Positions 3,787 to 51,875 of a DNA stretch of 64,000 bases are shown here, in pieces. The notes under the pieces are model-generated. The model did no database searches. It was not told where the DNA came from and was given only the letters and a program-made list of their open reading frames with translations. Each line of letters opens with the position of its first letter. Positions within the stretch are counted from its first letter, which is position 1. Source of the DNA: Cohaesibacter gelatinilyticus (GTDB lineage Bacteria; Pseudomonadota; Alphaproteobacteria; Rhizobiales; Cohaesibacteraceae). The DNA is taken from assembly GCF_900215605.1 (NCBI RefSeq), contig NZ_OBEL01000002.1, positions 496,001-560,000 of the forward strand. The letters are read 5' to 3'. The position numbers and the translations under genes were made by a program.

Positions 3787-5379
3787 TCACCCCTCGCTGA
3801 TCTCAGCCCAGGACAGGCCGAATTTCTCCAGATATTTGCGCAAGCGGTCCGCATCATTTTTGCTTTTGCGGCTCTCACGAGAGGCGGCAAAGAGGCTGCG
3901 GCCTGCGGCGCTGAGGCTGGGGCTTTGCTGGCAGGTGCGAATGACATAGGCAAGCTGCACCCGGTCGAACGGGTCCAGCAGCTTCGCCTCCTCCCCCAGA
4001 ACAGAACTCAAAAGCTCTGCATCCGGATCTTGCCTGGCACTTTCCCAATGAGCTTGCAGGGTCTCGATCTCCTGCTCGACAGCGGCCAGCGTGATGCGGG
4101 CGCGCGGGGCCAGCGTGCAAAGCCGCTGCATGGAGGCCCCAAGATCGCGAAAATTGCCCGGCCACAGCGTGGCAGGCGATGTGGCAAAGCGCAAGTAACG
4201 GGCATAGGCATCGGCATTGAAGCCAAAGCGGGTGCCAAGCAAGGTCTCGCAGCGGTTCAACTCATATTCGATATTGGGTTCGATATCCTCTCGTCGCTCG
4301 GCCAGAGATGGCAGTGCAAAGGTCCATAAATTCAGCCGCGCATAAAGATCAGGGCGGAATTTACCCTTGGCCACCAGCGCCCCCAAATTCTGGTTGGTGC
4401 CAGCGATCAGCTGAAAGCGGCTGGTGATTTCATGGTCCGAGCCAACGGGCAGAAAGCGCCCGGTCTCGACCGCATGCAAGATCATCGCCTGCTCATCCAG
4501 TCCCAGCTCGTCAATCTCGTCCAGAAACAGAACTCCGCCATCCGCCTCACGCAACAGGCCACGCCGGTCGGAATTGCCCGTGCCCACCGCCCCGCGGCGA
4601 TGACCAAACAGGCTGGACATGGCCCGCTCGCCCTTCAGCGTGGCACAATTGACATGCACCATACGGCCCTTGACACGGCGACGCTGCAATTTCAGCTCAT
4701 AAATCTTTTGTGCCAGTTCGCTCTTGCCCGTGCCTGTCGCCCCCATCAGCAACAGAGGCGCATCCGATTGGCTCGCCACCAGCTCTATACGCTCTATCAG
4801 GCTATTAAAGGCGGCATTGCGGGTTTCGATACCCGATTTCAAAAGCGCATTATATTCCTGCGCAATCAGATCAAAGCGCTGCTGCAAGGCATCATAGCGC
4901 CGCAAGTCCAAATCAACGATGGAATAGGAGCCGTAATCCGGATCCCCCTGTTGTAGCGGTGGCGATGTCTGCACCAGCTTGGCGGGCACATGGCGGGATT
5001 CGGCCAGCAGGAACCAGCAGATCTGGGCCACATGGGTGCCGGTGGTCAGATGCAGATAATAATCCTCGCGCTCTTCATCAAAGCCATAGCCATTGGCAAA
5101 GTCGAACAGCGCGCCATAGACCTCCTGAAAATCCCATGGGTCATTGAGATCCACCTCTTGCAGCAGAACCTCCGTCGCCGGGCTGGCCCCTTCGATATTC
5201 TCTTTCACCTTATAGGCCAAACGAGAGAATTTACGATCATGAAGCAGCTCCAGCCGATGCACCGGAAAATGCCCATGCTGCGTCACCGCCACCGATGGCC
5301 GCCATCGCCGCTTCTTCCCTGCATCCAGCTGGGTGCCCAGGAAGCCGATCACAACATTCTTTTTCAAAGACCCCTGCAT
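3787..5379 (-). CDS. rtcR: RtcR, sigma-54-dependent activator of the RNA-repair operon
   Basis: RtcR is the activator of rtcBA and rsr-type RNA-repair operons. Residues 1 to about 180 form the CARF-like sensor region (VVIGFLGTQLDAGK near the start, then HLTTGTHVAQICWFLLAES). In this family that region is thought to sense RNA ends or fragments. The AAA+ domain follows, with Walker A GATGTGKS at 213-220 and Walker B VLFLDEIDELG. The C-terminal HTH lies around SLSAAGRSLF and DADRLRKYLEKFGL. The ATG at 5379 is chosen because family members begin just before VVIGF; an in-frame start 28 codons upstream adds unrelated residues. The GAFTGA loop that touches sigma-54 reads GAVGTG (263-268), which is unusual. 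The gene is divergent from the sigma-54 promoter at 5698. Confidence 0.95.
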   Translation of the reverse strand: MQGSLKKNVVIGFLGTQLDAGKKRRWRPSVAVTQHGHFPVHRLELLHDRKFSRLAYKVKENIEGASPATEVLLQEVDLNDPWDFQEVYGALFDFANGYGFDEEREDYYLHLTTGTHVAQICWFLLAESRHVPAKLVQTSPPLQQGDPDYGSYSIVDLDLRRYDALQQRFDLIAQEYNALLKSGIETRNAAFNSLIERIELVASQSDAPLLLMGATGTGKSELAQKIYELKLQRRRVKGRMVHVNCATLKGERAMSSLFGHRRGAVGTGNSDRRGLLREADGGVLFLDEIDELGLDEQAMILHAVETGRFLPVGSDHEITSRFQLIAGTNQNLGALVAKGKFRPDLYARLNLWTFALPSLAERREDIEPNIEYELNRCETLLGTRFGFNADAYARYLRFATSPATLWPGNFRDLGASMQRLCTLAPRARITLAAVEQEIETLQAHWESARQDPDAELLSSVLGEEAKLLDPFDRVQLAYVIRTCQQSPSLSAAGRSLFAASRESRKSKNDADRLRKYLEKFGLSWAEISEG

Positions 5380-5436
5380 GATGGTCCTTTTGCCCTCTGA
5401 CTTTGTCAATGTTCGCTTCCGGTTCTCGTCCTTTGA

Positions 5437-5479
5437 GCGAATTCTTGTCCGAAAAGTCTGCAACTTTTCGGAAACGCGC
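5437..5479. repeat. Short palindromic repeat, CCGAAAAGT type
   Basis: A perfect 9-bp stem (CCGAAAAGT/ACTTTTCGG, loop CTGCA) lies inside a longer imperfect palindrome upstream of rtcR. A related element occurs at 57811-57858. Such palindromes are common between genes in Rhizobiales. It would sit in the rtcR leader RNA. Confidence 0.6.
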
Positions 5480-5697: not shown

Positions 5698-5713
5698 GGG
5701 CACGCTTCCTGCA
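5698..5713 (+). promoter_or_regulatory. Sigma-54 (RpoN) promoter of the RNA-repair operon
   Basis: The sequence GGGCACG-CTTC-CTGCA matches the -24/-12 consensus TGGCACG-N4-TTGC. It has the invariant GG (5699-5700), exactly 10 bases, then the invariant GC (5711-5712). It faces the 86-residue gene, rsr, the RNAs and rtcB, and lies divergent from rtcR, the expected activator. Transcription should start about 12 bases downstream. Confidence 0.85.
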
Positions 5714-5756: not shown

Positions 5757-6246
5757 CTCTCACGGCAATTCGACGCATCCGCGTCGGCCTGCGAGGGCAC
5801 GTTCAAGTTGGCAGGAGACACATTATGGCAGTTCTTTTCAGATGGCTGGATCACTCAGAAAACTACTCCATTTGCCTGGATGACGCCGAATTTGACAGCG
5901 TTGCTCCTGCATTCGATGTACTGAGGGAAAAAACCGGTGTGTACATAGACCCATACGGATACAGCAGATTAAGTCCTGATCATGCCGCTATTGTTCTGGC
6001 AAATTTCAAGGCAGACACTCCTTTGTCAGAAATGCTGAAAACCTGCATCTCCGAAGATAAATGGATCTTCGTGGAAGGGGATTAGGCACATTCAAGGAAA
6101 GAGTTTCGCGTAGTAGGACCTATTGCCTCATCAATCCCACAAGGAAAAAGAACCCAGAAAAGGAAATCCTTCCTTTTCTGACGGCCGATAGGCAAGCGCG
6201 AAGCGCCCCTCGGAGGCCCAAGCGAAGCTTGGATTAGCCGTGAGAG
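5757..6246. repeat. Palindromic repeat A, copy 1, split around an ORF
   Basis: The left arm (5757 to about 5790, beginning CTCTCACGG) and right arm (about 6142 to 6246, ending TAGCCGTGAGAG) match the two ends of the roughly 230-bp element at 8298, 8728 and 10406. Here the middle is replaced by about 350 bp holding the 86-codon gene. The left arm includes the gene's leader, and the right arm runs up to the leader of rsr. An alternative reading is two separate partial copies. Confidence 0.7.
5825..6085 (+). CDS. Hypothetical 86-residue protein, first gene of the sigma-54 operon
   Basis: The family is not recognised. This is a small, acidic, soluble-looking protein (starts MAVLFRWLDHSEN, ends DKWIFVEGD) with no signal peptide or membrane segment. 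The start is well supported: AGGAG lies about 8 bases before the ATG. It is the first reading frame after the sigma-54 promoter and so should be induced together with rsr, the Y-type RNAs and rtcB. It is enclosed by the two arms of repeat A. A role in RNA repair or stress is inferred from position only. Confidence 0.65.
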   Translation: MAVLFRWLDHSENYSICLDDAEFDSVAPAFDVLREKTGVYIDPYGYSRLSPDHAAIVLANFKADTPLSEMLKTCISEDKWIFVEGD

Positions 6247-6266: not shown

Positions 6267-7832
6267 ATGGCACATAAATCTTTGTTCGCGTCATTCAAAG
6301 GACGCTTCTCAAACAAGACCGTCAGCCACAATCTGGCTGGAGGCCGGGCCTATGAATATGACGACCGGCACAAGCTGGCACAATTGGCCGTAACCGGCAC
6401 GATTGGTGATCTGCATTATCAGAATGCCGAGCAGGAATTGCAGGCAGTGCTGACAGCTGCAAGCAAGGTCAGCGATGACTTTCTGGCAAAGACAGCCATC
6501 TATGCCCGCCAAAACGGCAAGATGAAAGACATGCCCGCTTTGCTGCTGGCCGTGCTGGCATCTCGCGATCCGGTTCTGCTCTCTCGCGCCTTTGGCGAGG
6601 TGGTGACCAACGGCAAAATGCTGCGCAATTTCGTGCAGATCATGCGCTCTGGCCAGACCGGGCGAAAGTCTCTTGGCACACGGCCAAAGGCTTTGGTGCA
6701 GGCATGGCTGAACAGCGCCAGCGATTATCAGCTGCTGCAGGCGAGCGTTGGCCAGTCTCCATCTCTGGCTGATGTGATCAAGATGGTGCATCCAAAGCCA
6801 CGCAATGCAGAGCGTGAAGCCCTGTATCGCTGGCTGATCGGCAAACCATGTGCAGCAGAAAATCTGCCAGAACAGGTGCGTGATTATGTAGCCTATAAGG
6901 AAGATCCAAAAGGCCGCATGGTGCCCGATGTTCCCTTTCAGATGCTGACCAGCTTGCCGCTGTCAGCAAAGGATTGGGCCACAATCGCCCGGCGCGGAAG
7001 CTGGAACATGATCCGCATGAACCTGAACACCTTCTTGCGCCATGGTGCCTTTGAAGATGAGCAGGTGGTTGCAGATGTCGCAAGGATAGTGAGTGATGAA
7101 ACACGCGTGAGAAAAGCCAATGCCTTTCCTTACCAGTTGATGACGACCTATCAGGCGCTGTCCATGCAAATGCCTCGGCAAATCCGCGAGGCCTTGCATG
7201 ACGCCATGGAGATTGCGGTTTCCAATGTGCCTGCCTTTGACGGCAAAGTCGTGGTCTGTCCCGATGTCTCGGGCTCCATGACCTGGCCCGTCACCGGCAC
7301 ACGCGGCACGGCAACCACGTCCACGCGCTTTGTCGATATCGCGGCCTTGGTGAGCGCAGCGGTCTTGCGCCAGAACAAATCGGCAGAAATCTTGCCGTTT
7401 GAGTTCGATGTGCGAGAGGTTTCATTGGAACCACGGGATAGCATCCTGACCAATGCACGAAGGCTGGCCGAGCTGGCCGGAGGAGGCACAAACTGCTCTG
7501 CACCATTGGCTTGGCTGAACAAAAGGCAGAAGGCACCGGATCTGGTCATCATGGTCTCGGACAACCAGTCCTGGGTCGACCAGAGCTGGGGATCGAACAA
7601 CAAGACAAACATGATGGCCGAATGGGAGAAGCTCAAGAAGCGGAACCCGAAGGCGAAACTGGTCTGCATCGACATTGCCCCTTACGGGACAAGCCAGGCC
7701 AAATCCCGCCCGGACGTCTTGAATATAGGGGGCTTCTCTGATGCCGTCTTCGAACAGATCGCTGCTTTTGCAGAGGACAGATCAAGCGCCGAATATGTGG
7801 TCGGCGAAATTGAAAGGATAGAATTGCGTTAG
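6267..7832 (+). CDS. rsr: Rsr, Ro60-like TROVE-domain RNA-binding protein
   Basis: This is the bacterial orthologue of the Ro60 autoantigen. It is a ring of helical repeats (TROVE domain, about residues 1-310) that binds misfolded RNA ends in its hole and Y RNAs on its outer face. The C-terminal von Willebrand A domain has a MIDAS motif DVSGSM at 333-338. The length (521 residues) fits the family. The ATG at 6267 (MAHKSLFASF) is preferred over an in-frame GTG at 6240 that lies inside repeat A; AAAGGG precedes it. The stop is only 17 bases before the first Y-type RNA. rtcB follows, so Ro60, its RNAs and the ligase share one RtcR/sigma-54 transcript. Confidence 0.95.
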   Translation: MAHKSLFASFKGRFSNKTVSHNLAGGRAYEYDDRHKLAQLAVTGTIGDLHYQNAEQELQAVLTAASKVSDDFLAKTAIYARQNGKMKDMPALLLAVLASRDPVLLSRAFGEVVTNGKMLRNFVQIMRSGQTGRKSLGTRPKALVQAWLNSASDYQLLQASVGQSPSLADVIKMVHPKPRNAEREALYRWLIGKPCAAENLPEQVRDYVAYKEDPKGRMVPDVPFQMLTSLPLSAKDWATIARRGSWNMIRMNLNTFLRHGAFEDEQVVADVARIVSDETRVRKANAFPYQLMTTYQALSMQMPRQIREALHDAMEIAVSNVPAFDGKVVVCPDVSGSMTWPVTGTRGTATTSTRFVDIAALVSAAVLRQNKSAEILPFEFDVREVSLEPRDSILTNARRLAELAGGGTNCSAPLAWLNKRQKAPDLVIMVSDNQSWVDQSWGSNNKTNMMAEWEKLKKRNPKAKLVCIDIAPYGTSQAKSRPDVLNIGGFSDAVFEQIAAFAEDRSSAEYVVGEIERIELR

Positions 7833-7849: not shown

Positions 7850-8011
7850 GCAGGCGAATGCTGAAGGAATTACATTGCCGCCACCAAACCGGATGTTCAG
7901 TGGGTTCAACTCCCCTCTAGGCGTGCGTTCAAAAGTCTGGGCGAGCTTTGCTCCAACAGGCTTCGGCCCGAACGGGACATCCAAAACCATTCCTTCTCTC
8001 TTGTCGCCTGC
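7850..8011 (+). ncRNA. Y-type RNA 1 (Ro60-associated)
   Basis: The outer stem is GCAGGCGA (7850-7857) with TCGCCTGC (8004-8011), a perfect 8 bp. Conserved ATGCT follows, then the inner stem GAAGGAAT (7863-7870) with ATTCCTTC (7989-7996), also 8 bp, then conserved TACA. The 3' side carries the conserved CTTG before the outer stem. The interior has a weak T-arm-like segment (GGGTTCAACTCCC) and a GAGC/GCTC hairpin. The stem sequences differ from those of RNAs 2-4 while pairing is kept, so this is a structured RNA. It starts 17 bases after rsr. Confidence 0.85.
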
Positions 8012-8033
8012 CCTTCCTTGCCAAATCTGACAC

Positions 8034-8130
8034 AGGGCGAATGCCGATGAGACTACATCGTGGACCAGGAAAGCGGAGATCAATGATCGTGGCGCGCCTG
8101 GCTTGTGTCTCATCAACACCTTGTCGCCTG
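8034..8130 (+). ncRNA. Y-type RNA 2 (short form)
   Basis: It has the same plan as RNA 1. The outer stem is GGGCGA (8035-8040) with TCGCCT (8124-8129, one G-U), followed by ATGCC. The inner stem is GATGAGAC (8046-8053) with GTCTCATC (8107-8114), a perfect 8 bp, followed by TACATCG. The 3' internal loop ends in CCTTG. The interior is a simple branched hairpin (CCAGG/CCTGG and GATC/GATC) with no tRNA-like arm, so this copy may be a minimal Ro60-binding RNA. Confidence 0.85.
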
Positions 8131-8151
8131 ATTTGAACGTTTGAAATTGGT

Positions 8152-8288
8152 TAGGGCGAATGCCTGCAGAACTACATCGATTGTTAACCGCCAGGTCGCG
8201 GGTTCGAATCCCGCCGCTGCAGCCACTTATGATGCAGCGTAGCTCAGAGGTAGAGCAGGAAACGTTTTGCAACAAACTTGTCGCCTTA
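8152..8288 (+). ncRNA. Y-type RNA 3 with a circularly permuted tRNA mimic
   Basis: The outer stem is TAGGGCGA (8152-8159) with TCGCCTTA (8281-8288). ATGCC follows, then the inner stem TGCAGAAC (8165-8172) with GTTTTGCA (8264-8271, one G-U), then TACATCG. Inside comes the 3' half of a tRNA: T-stem GCGGG/CCCGC around TTCGAAT (8203-8209), acceptor strand CGCTGCA (8215-8221), then G-CCA. A 7-base loop follows. Next is the 5' half: acceptor strand TGCAGCG (8233-8239), TA, and D-arm GCTC-AGAGGTA-GAGC (8242-8256). The Ro60-binding stem therefore takes the place of the anticodon arm, as in the YrlA-type RNAs of enterobacteria. A T-run follows the outer stem. Confidence 0.92.
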
Positions 8289-8297
8289 GCTCTTTTT

Positions 8298-8527
8298 CTC
8301 TCACGGCTACTCGACGCTTGCGCGTCGGCCTCCGAGGGGGCGCAGTCAAGCTGCGGTCGCTTATCAGCTCCCGGCGAAAACCCATGTTTTCGCCGAATTC
8401 TTTTCCCTCGAAAGATTGGCAAGGGAAAAGGATCCGCAAAAGGAAATCCTTCCTTTTGCGACGGCCGATAGGCAAGCGCGAAGCGCCCCTCGGAGGCCCG
8501 AGCGGAAGCGAGGAATAGCCGTGAGAG
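8298..8527. repeat. Palindromic repeat A, copy 2
   Basis: A 230-bp element with inverted ends CTCTCACGGCTA and TAGCCGTGAGAG. Inside are further hairpins, such as CGGCGAAAAC/GTTTTCGCCG. It begins within 10 bases of the end of Y-type RNA 3 and ends about 30 bases before RNA 4, inside the same transcript. Short frames through it on both strands are not genes. Confidence 0.85.
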
Positions 8528-8558
8528 AAAACACCGAGAGAAAACAAAAAATAACCCA

Positions 8559-8709
8559 ATTGGGGATGCCGACAGGATTACAGGTAAACGCATTCTGATG
8601 AGGCCTCTTGTCAGAAGGGATCACATGAAGATGTGATCCGTGCCAGTTCAAATCTGGCCCGGAGAAATCCGGTGGCGGAATTTTCATCTTGTCATCCGTT
8701 TGCCCCAAT
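8559..8709 (+). ncRNA. Y-type RNA 4 with T-arm and GAAA-capped stem
   Basis: The outer stem is ATTGGGG (8559-8565) with CCCCAAT (8703-8709), fully changed from the other copies yet still perfectly paired. Conserved ATGCC follows, then the inner stem GACAGGAT (8571-8578) with ATCTTGTC (8686-8693, one G-U), then TACA. The interior has a 9-bp hairpin (GGATCACAT/ATGTGATCC) and a perfect T-arm GCCAG-TTCAAAT-CTGGC (8642-8658). A CCGGA-GAAA-TCCGG stem directly follows (8659-8672), which looks like an acceptor stem closed by a tetraloop. No D-arm is evident. Confidence 0.85.
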
Positions 8710-8727
8710 GGAAGTCTGGCTTCTAAC

Positions 8728-8956
8728 CTCTCACGGCCATTTGACGCTTCCGCGTCGGCCTGCGAGGGTGCGCAGTCAAGCTGCGGTCGCTTATCAGCTC
8801 CCGGCGAAAACCTATGTTTCCGCCGAATTCTTTTCTCTTGAGAAATCAGCGAGGAAAAAGAATCCAGAAGAGGAAATCCTTCCTTTTCTGACGGCCGATA
8901 GGCAAGCGCGAAGCGCCCCTCGGAGGCCCATGCGAAGCTTGGAATAGCCGTGAGAG
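8728..8956. repeat. Palindromic repeat A, copy 3
   Basis: A 229-bp element in the same orientation as copy 2 and highly similar to it across its length. It is bounded by CTCTCACGGC and TAGCCGTGAGAG. It fills the gap between Y-type RNA 4 and rtcB, ending about 36 bases before the rtcB start. Confidence 0.85.
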
Positions 8957-8992: not shown

Positions 8993-10393
8993 GTGAGCGA
9001 ATTTGAAACCAATACATTGACCAGTGAAGTCTTGAAAGAATGGGGCCATAAGCCCGGGAAAGCCTTTGGCGCTGCGCTTCGTGATGGGCAGACAGCCTTG
9101 GAAGAAGGGCTGGATTTGGCCGCCGTGCGCGAAAAGCTAGCGCCTTATATTCCGCCTCCTCAGCTGGAGTTGGCACCAACCGGTGCCAAGCCGTTTCATG
9201 CCAATATTGAAGCGGACGGCGAGGACGAGAAAGCCAATCTGGAATCCGTGATGCATCATATGCGCGAGCTGATGCGCACCCCGACAGTGGAAACCGGAGC
9301 CATCATGCCCGATGCCTGCCCGGCTGGCCCTTTGGGCACCATTCCAGTGGGCGGTGTGGTGGCAGCGCGCAATGCCATTCACCCCGGCATGCATAGCGCT
9401 GATATCTGCTGCTCGGTGATGATCACCATGGTCAAGGATGCCGACCCGAAAGCGGTGCTGGATGCCGCCCAGAGCGTGACCCATTTCGGCCCCGGTGGCC
9501 GCGCCAATGGCAAGCGCTTCACCATGTCCCAGAAGCTGATGGATCAGTTCCGCGAGAACAAATTCCTCAGCAATCCAAAGATCCTGCGTGCCGCGCAGGA
9601 ACATCTGGGAACACAGGGCGACGGCAACCATTTCCTGTTTGTAGGCACATCGCGGGCCACAGGCCAGACGGCCATCGTCACCCATCATGGCTCTCGCGGG
9701 CCGGGCGCGCAGCTTTACAAGATCGGCATGATCCTGGCCGAGAAGGTCCGCAAGCGCCTGTCGCCGCAGACCTTGAAGCAAAATGCCTGGATCCCGGCGG
9801 ATAGCGAGGATGGAAAAGCCTATTGGGAAGCCTTGCAGCTCATTCGCAAATGGACCAAGGCCAACCATAACGCCATCCATCAGGCCACTGTTGAGGCAGC
9901 AAAAGCCGATAGCGAACAGCGCTATTGGAACGAGCATAATTTCGTCTTCGAACGGGATGGTCTTTTCTATCATGGAAAAGGCGCCACCCCGGCCTGGGAT
10001 GACTATGCAAGTGACGCCACCGGCCTGACGCTCATCCCGCTGAACATGGCAGAGCCTGTTCTGGTGGTACGCGGAAAAGACGCCGACCACGCCCTTGGCT
10101 TCTCGCCACATGGGGCGGGGCGGAACTATTCCCGCACCGAGCATAAGCGCCGCAATGCAGGCAAAACGCCAGAAGAGATCTTGGCGGCGGAGACAGCCGG
10201 ATTGGATATCCGCTTCTTTGAAAACAAGATCGACATCTCGGAACTGCCTTCCAGCTACAAGAAGGCAGACGCAGTGGTCGCCCAGATCGAGAAATTCGGC
10301 CTCGCCGAAATCGAAGATTACATCGACCCCTATGGCTGCATCATGGCTGGCGAGATGGAACCCTTCTGGAAGCGAAAGAAGAAAGGAAGATAG
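8993..10393 (+). CDS. rtcB: RtcB, RNA-splicing 3'-phosphate/5'-OH RNA ligase
   Basis: RtcB joins RNA 2',3'-cyclic phosphate or 3'-phosphate ends to 5'-OH ends using GTP and Mn2+. Metal-site residues are visible: Asp137 and Cys140 in SADICC, His213 in GDGNHF, and His231/232 in HHGSRG. His373 in PHGAGRNYSR is the expected GMP-accepting His. The 466-residue length is longer than E. coli RtcB. The start is GTG, with GAGGAAAG 5-8 bases upstream. It is the last gene of the RtcR-controlled unit. No rtcA (RNA cyclase) follows; a repeat A copy and an oppositely oriented AraC gene come next. Confidence 0.96.
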   Translation: MSEFETNTLTSEVLKEWGHKPGKAFGAALRDGQTALEEGLDLAAVREKLAPYIPPPQLELAPTGAKPFHANIEADGEDEKANLESVMHHMRELMRTPTVETGAIMPDACPAGPLGTIPVGGVVAARNAIHPGMHSADICCSVMITMVKDADPKAVLDAAQSVTHFGPGGRANGKRFTMSQKLMDQFRENKFLSNPKILRAAQEHLGTQGDGNHFLFVGTSRATGQTAIVTHHGSRGPGAQLYKIGMILAEKVRKRLSPQTLKQNAWIPADSEDGKAYWEALQLIRKWTKANHNAIHQATVEAAKADSEQRYWNEHNFVFERDGLFYHGKGATPAWDDYASDATGLTLIPLNMAEPVLVVRGKDADHALGFSPHGAGRNYSRTEHKRRNAGKTPEEILAAETAGLDIRFFENKIDISELPSSYKKADAVVAQIEKFGLAEIEDYIDPYGCIMAGEMEPFWKRKKKGR

Positions 10394-10405: not shown

Positions 10406-10635
10406 CCCTCACGGCTATTCCAAGCTTCGCTTGGGCCTACGGGGGTGCGCTTTGCGCTTGCCTATCGGCCGTCGCAAAAGGAAGGATTTCCTTTTGCGGA
10501 TTCTTTTTCCTAGCCAACCTCTCAAGGGAAAAGAATTCGACGGAAGCATCGCGCTTCCGTCGGGAGCTGATAAGCGACCGCAGCTTGACTGCGCCCCCTC
10601 GGAGGCCCGGCCAAAGGCCGGATTAGCCGTGAGAG
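10406..10635. repeat. Palindromic repeat A, copy 4 (inverted)
   Basis: A 230-bp element in the opposite orientation to copies 2 and 3: its left half matches the reverse complement of their right half. It lies between the convergent rtcB and AraC genes and could form a strong hairpin at the end of both transcripts. Confidence 0.85.
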
Positions 10636-50936: not shown

Positions 50937-51875
50937 ATGTTCAGATTTTTTCTCAACCGATTTGGCGCGACATTGCCAACACTGCTGGGCATGTCTTTTG
51001 TCGCTTTTGCAATTGTCACACTGGCTCCGGGTGATCCGGTCCAGATGGAATTGCGCGCCATGGGCGTTGTGCCCAAGCCGGAAGACATTGCTGCCATCAA
51101 GGCGGAATATGGCTTGGACAAGCCGTTTTTGGCGCGTTACATCCACTGGCTCTGGCGGGCTGTGCAACTGGATTTTGGCACATCCATTGCGACCGGGCGC
51201 AGCGTGATCGAGGAAATCGGCCTCTATTTGCCTGCCACCTTGATGCTGGCAATCTCGTCGCTTGTCGGGTCCATTGTCATTTCGCTTTTCCTTGGTGCTC
51301 TTGCCATCATGGGGAACCGTCTCACGGCGTCGCTTTTGCGCGCCATCACCATATTGCTGGTCTCCATTCCTTCCTTCTGGCTTGCCCTGATTTTGATCCA
51401 TGTTTTCATTCTCAATCTTGGCTGGTCTCGGCTGGTCGGTGAAGGGGACCTGAGTGATCTGATCCTGCCGGCCTTGACGCTCAGTCTTGGTGCTGGTGCG
51501 TCCCTTGGCAGGCTGGTCTATGAACGGGTGAGAGCTGAAGCATGTGAGGATTATGTCCGCCTTGCAATTGCCAAGGGGATCAGTCCTCTGGGCATCCTGA
51601 TCAGTCATATCGCTCCCCGTATCATAGGGCCGCTCGTCACCGTCTGGGCCACGACACTTGGCTGGATGCTGGGCGGCGCGGTGATTGTTGAAAGCATCTT
51701 TGGTTGGCCCGGCCTCGGGCAGCTCATATTGCAAGCCATTGGCCAGCGAGACTATCCGGTCATTCAGGGCTATCTGGTTCTGATGGGACTGGTCTTTGTC
51801 ACCACGTCCCTTATCGCCGATCTCGTGGTGGTTGTTGCCGATCCCCAATTGCGACGGAGGCTGCATCGTGACTGA
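50937..51875 (+). CDS. ABC transporter permease, first subunit (DppB/NikB type)
   Basis: A 312-residue inner-membrane permease with about six hydrophobic segments. It starts MFRFFLNRFGATLPTLLGMS. The typical EAA loop is ACEDYVRLAIAKGISPLGIL, where the ATPases dock. The length and LAPGDPVQ motif fit the first permease of dipeptide/nickel importers. Its stop overlaps the GTG start of the second permease, showing translational coupling. Confidence 0.93.
   Translation: MFRFFLNRFGATLPTLLGMSFVAFAIVTLAPGDPVQMELRAMGVVPKPEDIAAIKAEYGLDKPFLARYIHWLWRAVQLDFGTSIATGRSVIEEIGLYLPATLMLAISSLVGSIVISLFLGALAIMGNRLTASLLRAITILLVSIPSFWLALILIHVFILNLGWSRLVGEGDLSDLILPALTLSLGAGASLGRLVYERVRAEACEDYVRLAIAKGISPLGILISHIAPRIIGPLVTVWATTLGWMLGGAVIVESIFGWPGLGQLILQAIGQRDYPVIQGYLVLMGLVFVTTSLIADLVVVVADPQLRRRLHRD

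Follow-up and report, generated by a model that had tools for sequence, protein, structure and literature searches.

A Y RNA array in the RNA-repair operon of Cohaesibacter gelatinilyticus contains a YrlA and an apparent tRNA-Leu mimic opened in the D-loop

Bacterial Y RNAs, the tRNA mimicry of YrlA, and operons joining rsr, Y RNA, and rtc genes are already known. The closest described RNA is YrlA itself (RF02553; structure 6CU1), in which a circularly permuted tRNA-like body sits above an Rsr-type stem, and which is encoded beside rsr in the rtc operon. Passages of PMC11472068 (see also PMC8394870) describe how a bacterial Y RNA superposes on tRNA with circular permutation, and a passage of PMC8394870 reports that the YrlA tRNA-like domain binds PNPase, a partner studied in other bacteria. 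Activation of RtcR by tRNA fragments is described in PMC7790460. The closest described locus is the Salmonella rsr-yrlBA-rtcBA operon, with divergent rtcR, rsr, two Y RNAs, and rtcB. We analyzed a 64,000-nt stretch of the C. gelatinilyticus genome (hereafter, the window) that has the same order, but carries four Y RNAs rather than two and lacks a detectable rtcA in the operon or genome. Its genes and candidate promoter are as follows, in window coordinates.

3787..5463, - strand: rtcR, a sigma-54 activator with an RtcR N-terminal domain (Pfam RtcR 244.7 bits, Sigma54_activat 147.2 bits)
5698..5713, + strand: candidate sigma-54-like promoter GGGCACGCTTCCTGCA, from sequence and pattern, with a putative function
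6267..7832, + strand: rsr, a Ro60/TROVE homologue (Pfam vWA_Ro60 and TROVE)
8993..10393, + strand: rtcB, RNA ligase (Pfam RtcB 129.8 bits)

Judged by its gene content, the rsr-Y RNA-rtcB locus is probably an RNA-repair operon of the RtcR/sigma-54 kind, having the divergent rtcR and the rtcB of such operons, although not the rtcA. The search for rtcA (PF01137) found none in the 15 contigs of the genome (99.55% complete) despite the presence of rtcB and rtcR; 5 of 14 control genomes, E. coli included, were positive. A profile built from Rsr and nine relatives matched the solved Rsr structure 2NVO (E 1.5e-34). Across 90 rsr loci, rtcR was present in 84 and a downstream rtcB in 73, with some contigs ending early. 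Rsr itself is rare, occurring in 1 of 20 genomes of the family, namely this one, and in 7 of 385 in the class sample, this one included. The sigma-54 pattern matched once in the window. When 80 rtcR-rsr gaps were scanned with either a strict or a looser pattern, 18 matched and 62 did not, and the pattern was absent from the gaps of the close relatives L019, L028, L029, and L030; the control, run with the strict pattern alone, gave 2 matches in 136,518 b of rsr coding sequence. The gap spans ~800 b here and ~175-220 b in five relatives, and an 86-aa ORF with no Pfam match (5825-6085) lies between the sigma-54-like site and rsr. Homologues of Rsr also occur in 172 phage records (H41, H53, and others), for example in Myxococcus phage Mx1 at 48% identity.

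Between rsr and rtcB, four RNAs share a common frame.

7850..8012, + strand: RNA1, a Y RNA with a T-arm and a predicted pseudoknot (strict scan; 30-sequence alignment), outer stem GCAGGCGA/TCGCCTGC, inner stem GAAGGAAT/ATTCCTTC
8034..8130, + strand: RNA2, a Y RNA with inner stem GATGAGAC/GTCTCATC
8149..8291, + strand: RNA3, a canonical YrlA
8557..8711, + strand: RNA4, a Y RNA topped by what reads as a D-loop-opened tRNA-Leu-like mimic (tRNA-Leu model R1)

An earlier sequence-only reading had described these RNAs as having 8-bp inner stems flanked by constant joints, and all four stem pairs that it quoted are present in the sequence. The inner stems consist of eight Watson-Crick pairs in RNA1 and RNA2 and include a single G.U in each of RNA3 and RNA4. 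The ATGCY and TACA joints occur in all four RNAs, but the 3' joint is constant in its last letters only (CTTG, CTTG, CTTG, and TTTG in RNA1 to RNA4). A GGCGA/TCGCC outer stem is common to RNA1-3, and its full replacement by ATTGGGG/CCCCAAT in RNA4 was as claimed. All four RNAs are encoded beside the Ro60/Rsr gene, as is general for bacterial Y RNAs, and have the two-part paired stem with conserved joints, although the 3' joint and outer stem of RNA4 deviate. The missing GGCGA/TCGCC stem makes RNA4 the least certain Rsr binder of the four.

A strict scanner for this frame returned four matches in the 1,181-b rsr-rtcB gap, with none in its antisense and none in one mononucleotide shuffle. Applied to both strands of the 64 kb, it returned the four RNAs (scores 13.5-18.0) and three lower matches (11.6-12.5). 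Minimum free energy z-scores were -1.5, -2.8, -2.8, and -4.2 for RNA1 to RNA4, so that fold energy alone is weak evidence for RNA1 and its support is comparative. The Rfam YrlA model (RF02553), proposed earlier as a check, placed only RNA3 above the gathering threshold (69.9 bits against 69, E 5.7e-14). RNA2 scored 29.5 bits (E 0.0014), RNA1 15.6 bits (E 5.2, whole genome), and RNA4 gave no match to RF02553, which means that this model detects one RNA of the four in the array. ARAGORN found no tRNA in the window.

To place the array in context, we assembled 88 rsr loci: the window, 7 of 9 individually fetched loci, and the best 80 of 567 confirmed stretches from an Rsr alignment scan, with L020 and L021 left out as copies of L063 and L076. 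A single-sequence Rsr scan of genome contigs had found nothing. Taking the best 80 of 567 means that the sample leans towards relatives of the C. gelatinilyticus Rsr. Downstream of rsr, the strict scanner identified 332 Y RNAs in 104,030 b, compared with 0 in antisense, 1 in shuffled sequence, and 7 in 136,518 b of rsr coding sequence, which bears out the proposal of a structured Y RNA family adjoining rsr. It replaced a looser first version that gave 337 matches in 86,713 b, but also 46 in shuffled sequence, 52 in antisense, and 193 in the 136,518 b of rsr coding sequence. The number of Y RNAs per locus was 0 in 2 loci, 1 in 5, 2 in 8, 3 in 19, 4 in 28, 5 in 17, 6 in 6, and 7 in 3 (median 4, range 0-7). 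These counts are lower bounds because the strict scanner misses some RNAs, among them the RNA4-type RNAs of L030, L032, L041, L045, and L066, with that of L031 seen only as a wrong short match. Nor are they independent, since the loci are mutually related and L083/L087, L040/L044, and L084/L085 look like near pairs. Four Y RNAs in a row, which had been thought notable, is therefore the typical size among related loci, at least 54 of 88 having four or more. Of the 86 loci with RNAs, 72 carry one or more in which T-arm and D-arm motifs occur together.

The interiors of the four RNAs do differ, as had been noted: RNA3 and RNA4 represent two tRNA-mimic topologies, a T-arm is joined by a probable pseudoknot in RNA1, and nothing tRNA-like was found in RNA2. 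The tRNA-like part of RNA3 is laid out as follows.

8198..8257, + strand: RNA3 tRNA-like part (sequence, Rfam alignment, fold)
8198-8214: T-arm, GCGGG-TTCGAAT-CCCGC
8215-8221: acceptor 3' strand
8222-8225: G73 and CCA, within the joining loop
8233-8239: acceptor 5' strand
8240-8257: full D-arm TAGCTCAGAGGTAGAGCA

With T-arm, acceptor stem (CGCTGCA/TGCAGCG), and D-arm following one another above the Y stem, RNA3 is a member of the YrlA family and, by this order of parts, a tRNA mimic opened at the anticodon stem, the Y stem replacing the anticodon arm. Other YrlA matches in the genome were rejected. The strongest three outside the window (contig C1) are tandem tRNA arrays in which tRNA-Asp and tRNA-Val were recognized by sight, and ARAGORN lists both among all loci. 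Those at C3 and C1:1801526 overlap neighboring tRNA genes, and one at C6 resembles coding sequence, by sight only. Tandem tRNAs score because the T-arm of one is followed by the D-arm of the next; at L009 8840-9760 (G000:C1), the YrlA model gives 32-36 bits on such tRNAs, a trap for low-threshold searches.

RNA4 departs from the YrlA order, with its D-arm split around the Y stem. Above that stem, its parts run GGTAAACGC, hairpin, hairpin, TGCCAGTTCAAATCTGGC, CCGGA-GAAA-TCCGG, TGGCGGAA.

8583..8591, + strand: 3' half of the D-loop (GG = G18 G19) and D-stem 3' strand CGC (R1 alignment positions 1-9)
8592..8639, + strand: two hairpins, the first (4-nt loop) at the position of the anticodon arm and the second at that of the variable arm (folds of 12 homologues)
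8642..8658, + strand: T-arm GCCAG-TTCAAAT-CTGGC (R1 alignment, covariation)
8659..8672, + strand: acceptor stem CCGGA/TCCGG with a GAAA tetraloop cap and no free CCA end
8673..8682, + strand: U8 G9, D-stem 5' strand GCG, and 5' half of the D-loop (R1 alignment)

The pattern TGGCGGAA-N{1,6}-GGTAGACGC occurs three times in the genome, every time in a tRNA-Leu gene, and RNA4 is accordingly ordered like a tRNA-Leu opened in the D-loop. Genuine tRNA-Leu genes, rotated to this opening (31 collected, 26 aligned; RNA4 not used), served to build the covariance model R1. Over the 64 kb, its sole significant match was RNA4 at 8583-8682 (43.8 bits, E 1.3e-9, model positions 1-87), the next best scoring 8.5 bits (E 3.2). 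Over the whole genome (5.2 Mb), RNA4 ranked fifth of nine matches (E 1.0e-7); of the remaining eight, four overlap tRNA-Leu genes or the places where their motif occurs. At E 1e-3, RNA4 of the window was missed by sequence-only profiles of the unrotated tRNA-Leu genes and of four rotations; the profile of the D-loop rotation matched four places in other loci. By its R1 match, RNA4 has the class-II cloverleaf with a tRNA-Leu D-arm, in rotated form, but not the 7-bp acceptor, CCA end, and 7-nt anticodon loop of a tRNA. The sealed 5-bp acceptor and the 4-nt loop at the anticodon position mark it as a mimic and not a tRNA. What lies above the Y stem can be read as a tRNA-Leu-like fold of class II with its opening in the D-loop. 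RNA4 differs from YrlA in that the Y stem enters through the D-loop rather than replacing the anticodon arm, the body is class II with a variable arm, and the acceptor is GNRA-capped. Permuted tmRNA and red-algal tRNA genes also hold tRNA parts in rotated order, a likeness that RNA4 shares.

Homologues of RNA4 support this fold. Twelve regular-expression matches in 10 loci, together with the window and L029, yielded 12 sequences, from which RNAalifold recovered the outer stem, inner stem, D-stem, T-stem, and acceptor stem without tRNA input. In this alignment, 96.3% of cells were paired, compared with 29-50% when partners were slid by 1-3 positions, and 16 of 25 pairs showed changes on both sides. 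None of 500 shuffles reached the observed value on four of five measures; the fifth, further pair types, was reached by 191 of 500. Changes on both sides occur at four of the five acceptor pairs, every time in a single sequence of the 12. The D-stem CGC/GCG is invariant within these Leu-type homologues and hence shows no covariation there, its support coming from other D-stem types. Folded alone, the stretch between D-stem and T-arm formed two adjacent hairpins in 11 of 12 homologues, with a 3-5 nt loop in the first, anticodon-position hairpin of all 11; that of L019 formed one hairpin with an 8-nt loop. Whole-RNA minimum free energy folds contained the D-stem in 9 of 12 (missing in L019, L041, and L066), the T-stem in 11, and the acceptor hairpin in all 12.

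We then asked how widely RNA4 occurs. A native model, R2, scored RNA4 at 133.4 bits, RNA4 itself being among its training members. At 82 bits or more, R2 identified RNA4 homologues in 14 of the 88 loci (which include the best 80 of 567), those of L045 and L056 lying outside the training set. Only these were counted among 152 R2 matches at E up to 0.01, a total that reflects the shared Y stem. R1 gave 92 matches over the same loci at E up to 1, of which the best 13 (at least 36.6 bits) are RNA4-type and many weaker ones are YrlA-order RNAs or others. Run with stricter filters over 372 alphaproteobacterial genomes, R2 matched seven at E 1e-4. Two matches were strong (133 and 116 bits) and both lie at rsr; among the five weaker (26-36.5 bits), the one in G360 corresponds to a Y RNA at that genome's rsr locus, and the rest looked like tRNA-Leu genes by sight. 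The RNA4 DNA had no match among plasmids. In L030, a further Y RNA-like stretch (6298-6395) with a T-arm-like hairpin, GCCGG-TGCAACT-CCGGC, lies beside the RNA4 homologue.

Opening in the D-loop is not confined to Leu-type bodies. A rule-based scan for a Y 5' motif, GG, D-stem 3' strand, T-arm, acceptor hairpin, and D-stem 5' strand with no local D-arm found 22 such mimics, irrespective of tRNA type, distributed over at least 21 of the 88 loci (again including the best 80 of 567), and none in antisense, shuffled, or rsr coding sequence. The rule omits the similar-looking L045, L056, L070, L079, and L087. Different members have D-stems CGC/GCG, GAGC/GCTC, and GCGC/GCGC, which amounts to change on both sides across the Y stem. 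Their acceptor caps are GCAA in 10, GAAA in 4, and differ in the other 8. One class-I mimic lies in a Rhizobium phaseoli plasmid (L026, 7055-7139). By these alignments and scans, D-loop opening is general across Leu-type and class-I-type bodies. Without the Y motif, the rule gave 128 sense start positions, which are not RNAs and include YrlA, compared with 0 antisense, 1 shuffled, and 3 coding. A first classifier with 31 calls was replaced, several being plainly wrong. We also rejected as a discriminator model R3, based on 21 of 33 class-I tRNA sequences in D-loop-opened form, which matched 206 places; it fails to separate D-loop-opened mimics from YrlA because the T-acceptor-D part is common to both. 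Anticodon-opened mimics in YrlA order with a tRNA-Leu-type D-arm were seen in L042 (5606-5690), L062 (6042-6139), and L046 (5603-5688), so that Leu-type bodies occur in both topologies.

RNA1 represents a third type, combining a T-arm with a probable pseudoknot predicted from aligned homologues.

7875..7923, + strand: helix P1 (within 7875-7882, with 7920-7923), around the T-loop TTCAACT at 7905-7911
7891..7982, + strand: helix P2, GGATGTTC at 7891-7898 with GGACATCC at 7975-7982, 8 bp, crossing P1 to form the predicted pseudoknot

From 34 regular-expression matches we aligned 30 homologues, leaving out one each of L038 and L053 as well as L101, which are of other kinds, and L044, identical in its letters to L040 over this stretch. 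A T-loop TTCRAYT, the closing of P1 on the T-arm, and P2 strands crossing P1 are conserved. When partners were shuffled among these sequences, P1 was reached by 0 and P2 by 18 of 2000 shuffles. P2 is clear in L029 (GGATGGTCT/GGACCATCC) and L052 (CCGGAGACC/GGTCTCCGG); it spans 8 bp in the window and only 3 bp in L019. This unevenness makes the RNA1 pseudoknot likely but less sure than the RNA4 fold. In RNA2, alignment to the YrlA model, folding, and a scan for T- and D-arm motifs found no tRNA-like feature in the interior.

The anatomy, the homology, and the covariation of most helices can be read from the sequences themselves. From them, we consider it probable that this is the Y RNA array of an RtcR/sigma-54 RNA-repair operon whose members share an Rsr-type stem and differ in their tops, RNA3 being YrlA and RNA4 a second kind of mimic. 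Each RNA would present a distinct top on a stem of the Rsr-binding type (outer stem, ATGCY joint, inner stem, TACA joint), to which Rsr is expected to bind. The body contributed by RNA4 would resemble tRNA-Leu in its T-arm, variable arm, and D-stem, while lacking an anticodon loop and having its acceptor sealed by a GNRA loop. As its Y stem enters via the D-loop, this body would hang on the Rsr stem from the elbow side. RNA3 and RNA4 would then both offer a T-arm beside an acceptor helix along with D/T elbow parts, hung from different ends. Such tops may recruit to Rsr proteins that recognize the tRNA elbow and the acceptor/T minihelix, which could be PNPase, as in RYPER, or tRNA-handling enzymes. 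Damaged tRNAs would switch on RtcR, and the array would then supply several Rsr handles during tRNA cutting, and the variety of geometries may allow a single Rsr ring to be tethered in more than one way. With sealed acceptor ends and no anticodon loop, RNA4 should be neither aminoacylated nor able to decode, and would act as a handle or decoy and not as a tRNA.

Other explanations were considered. The full-length match of RNA4 to a rotated tRNA-Leu model, next to a ligase gene, is what would be expected of a permuted pre-tRNA gene whose transcript would yield a working tRNA-Leu after cutting and rejoining, perhaps by RtcB. We regard this as very improbable given a 5-bp, GNRA-closed acceptor without CCA (with GCAA or GAAA caps in 14 of the 22 D-loop-opened mimics), a loop of 3-5 nt at the anticodon position in all 11 two-hairpin homologues (4 nt in RNA4 itself), and tRNA-Leu genes already present in the genome. 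The sealed acceptor ends and the missing anticodon loop suggest that RNA4 is not the precursor of a working tRNA. It is still harder to credit that the four RNAs are processed leftovers or repeat remnants of the rsr-rtcB message with no separate function. Two REP-like repeats do lie within the array, but the 332 frame matches over 88 loci against 0, 1, and 7 in controls, and the conservation of the RNA1 and RNA4 types with covariation across genera, speak against it.

A more serious contender, albeit an unlikely one, is that the tRNA-like tops serve as decoys: during attack they would engage the nucleases that cleave tRNA, sparing uncleaved tRNA while RtcB mends the rest. The diversity of tRNA types among the mimics would fit, and a passage of Hughes et al. 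(PMC7790460) names competitive nuclease inhibition as one possibility for YrlA. However, RNA3 and RNA4 have no anticodon loop, which is the cut site of the nucleases described there, and the Rsr stem would need another reason.

The literature we searched, with the primary papers (Chen 2013/2014, Sim & Wolin 2018, Wang 2018, Sim 2020) outside it, describes bacterial Y RNAs as tRNA mimics of a single topology and mentions no Y RNA that is opened in the D-loop or of tRNA-Leu type. On this basis, opening in the D-loop appears to be a new form. We lean slightly toward a broader reading in which Rsr operons carry kits of mimics, with the Y stem placed at the anticodon arm (YrlA) or in the D-loop (class I and II) plus a pseudoknotted T-arm type, such that one Ro60 ring could hold tRNA-binding machinery in several orientations. 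If true, natural tRNA mimicry would gain a new architecture, a tRNA-Leu mimic that is opened in the D-loop, capped by a GNRA loop, and devoid of an anticodon loop. The recurrence of a second topology in rsr operons suggests that the tRNA elbow and acceptor minihelix, and not a fixed orientation, are presented to partners. Having two topologies offers a direct way to ask what Y RNAs recruit to Ro60 in tRNA damage.

The REP-like repeat mentioned above has the ends CTCTCACGGC...GCCGTGAGAG and was located by BLAST at 5760-5797, 6140-6241, 8301-8522, 8731-8951, and 10411-10607 of the window, the copies being 87-89% alike to 8301-8522. The two inside the array occupy the RNA3-RNA4 and RNA4-rtcB intervals, and the end motifs also occur at 51320 and 54592.
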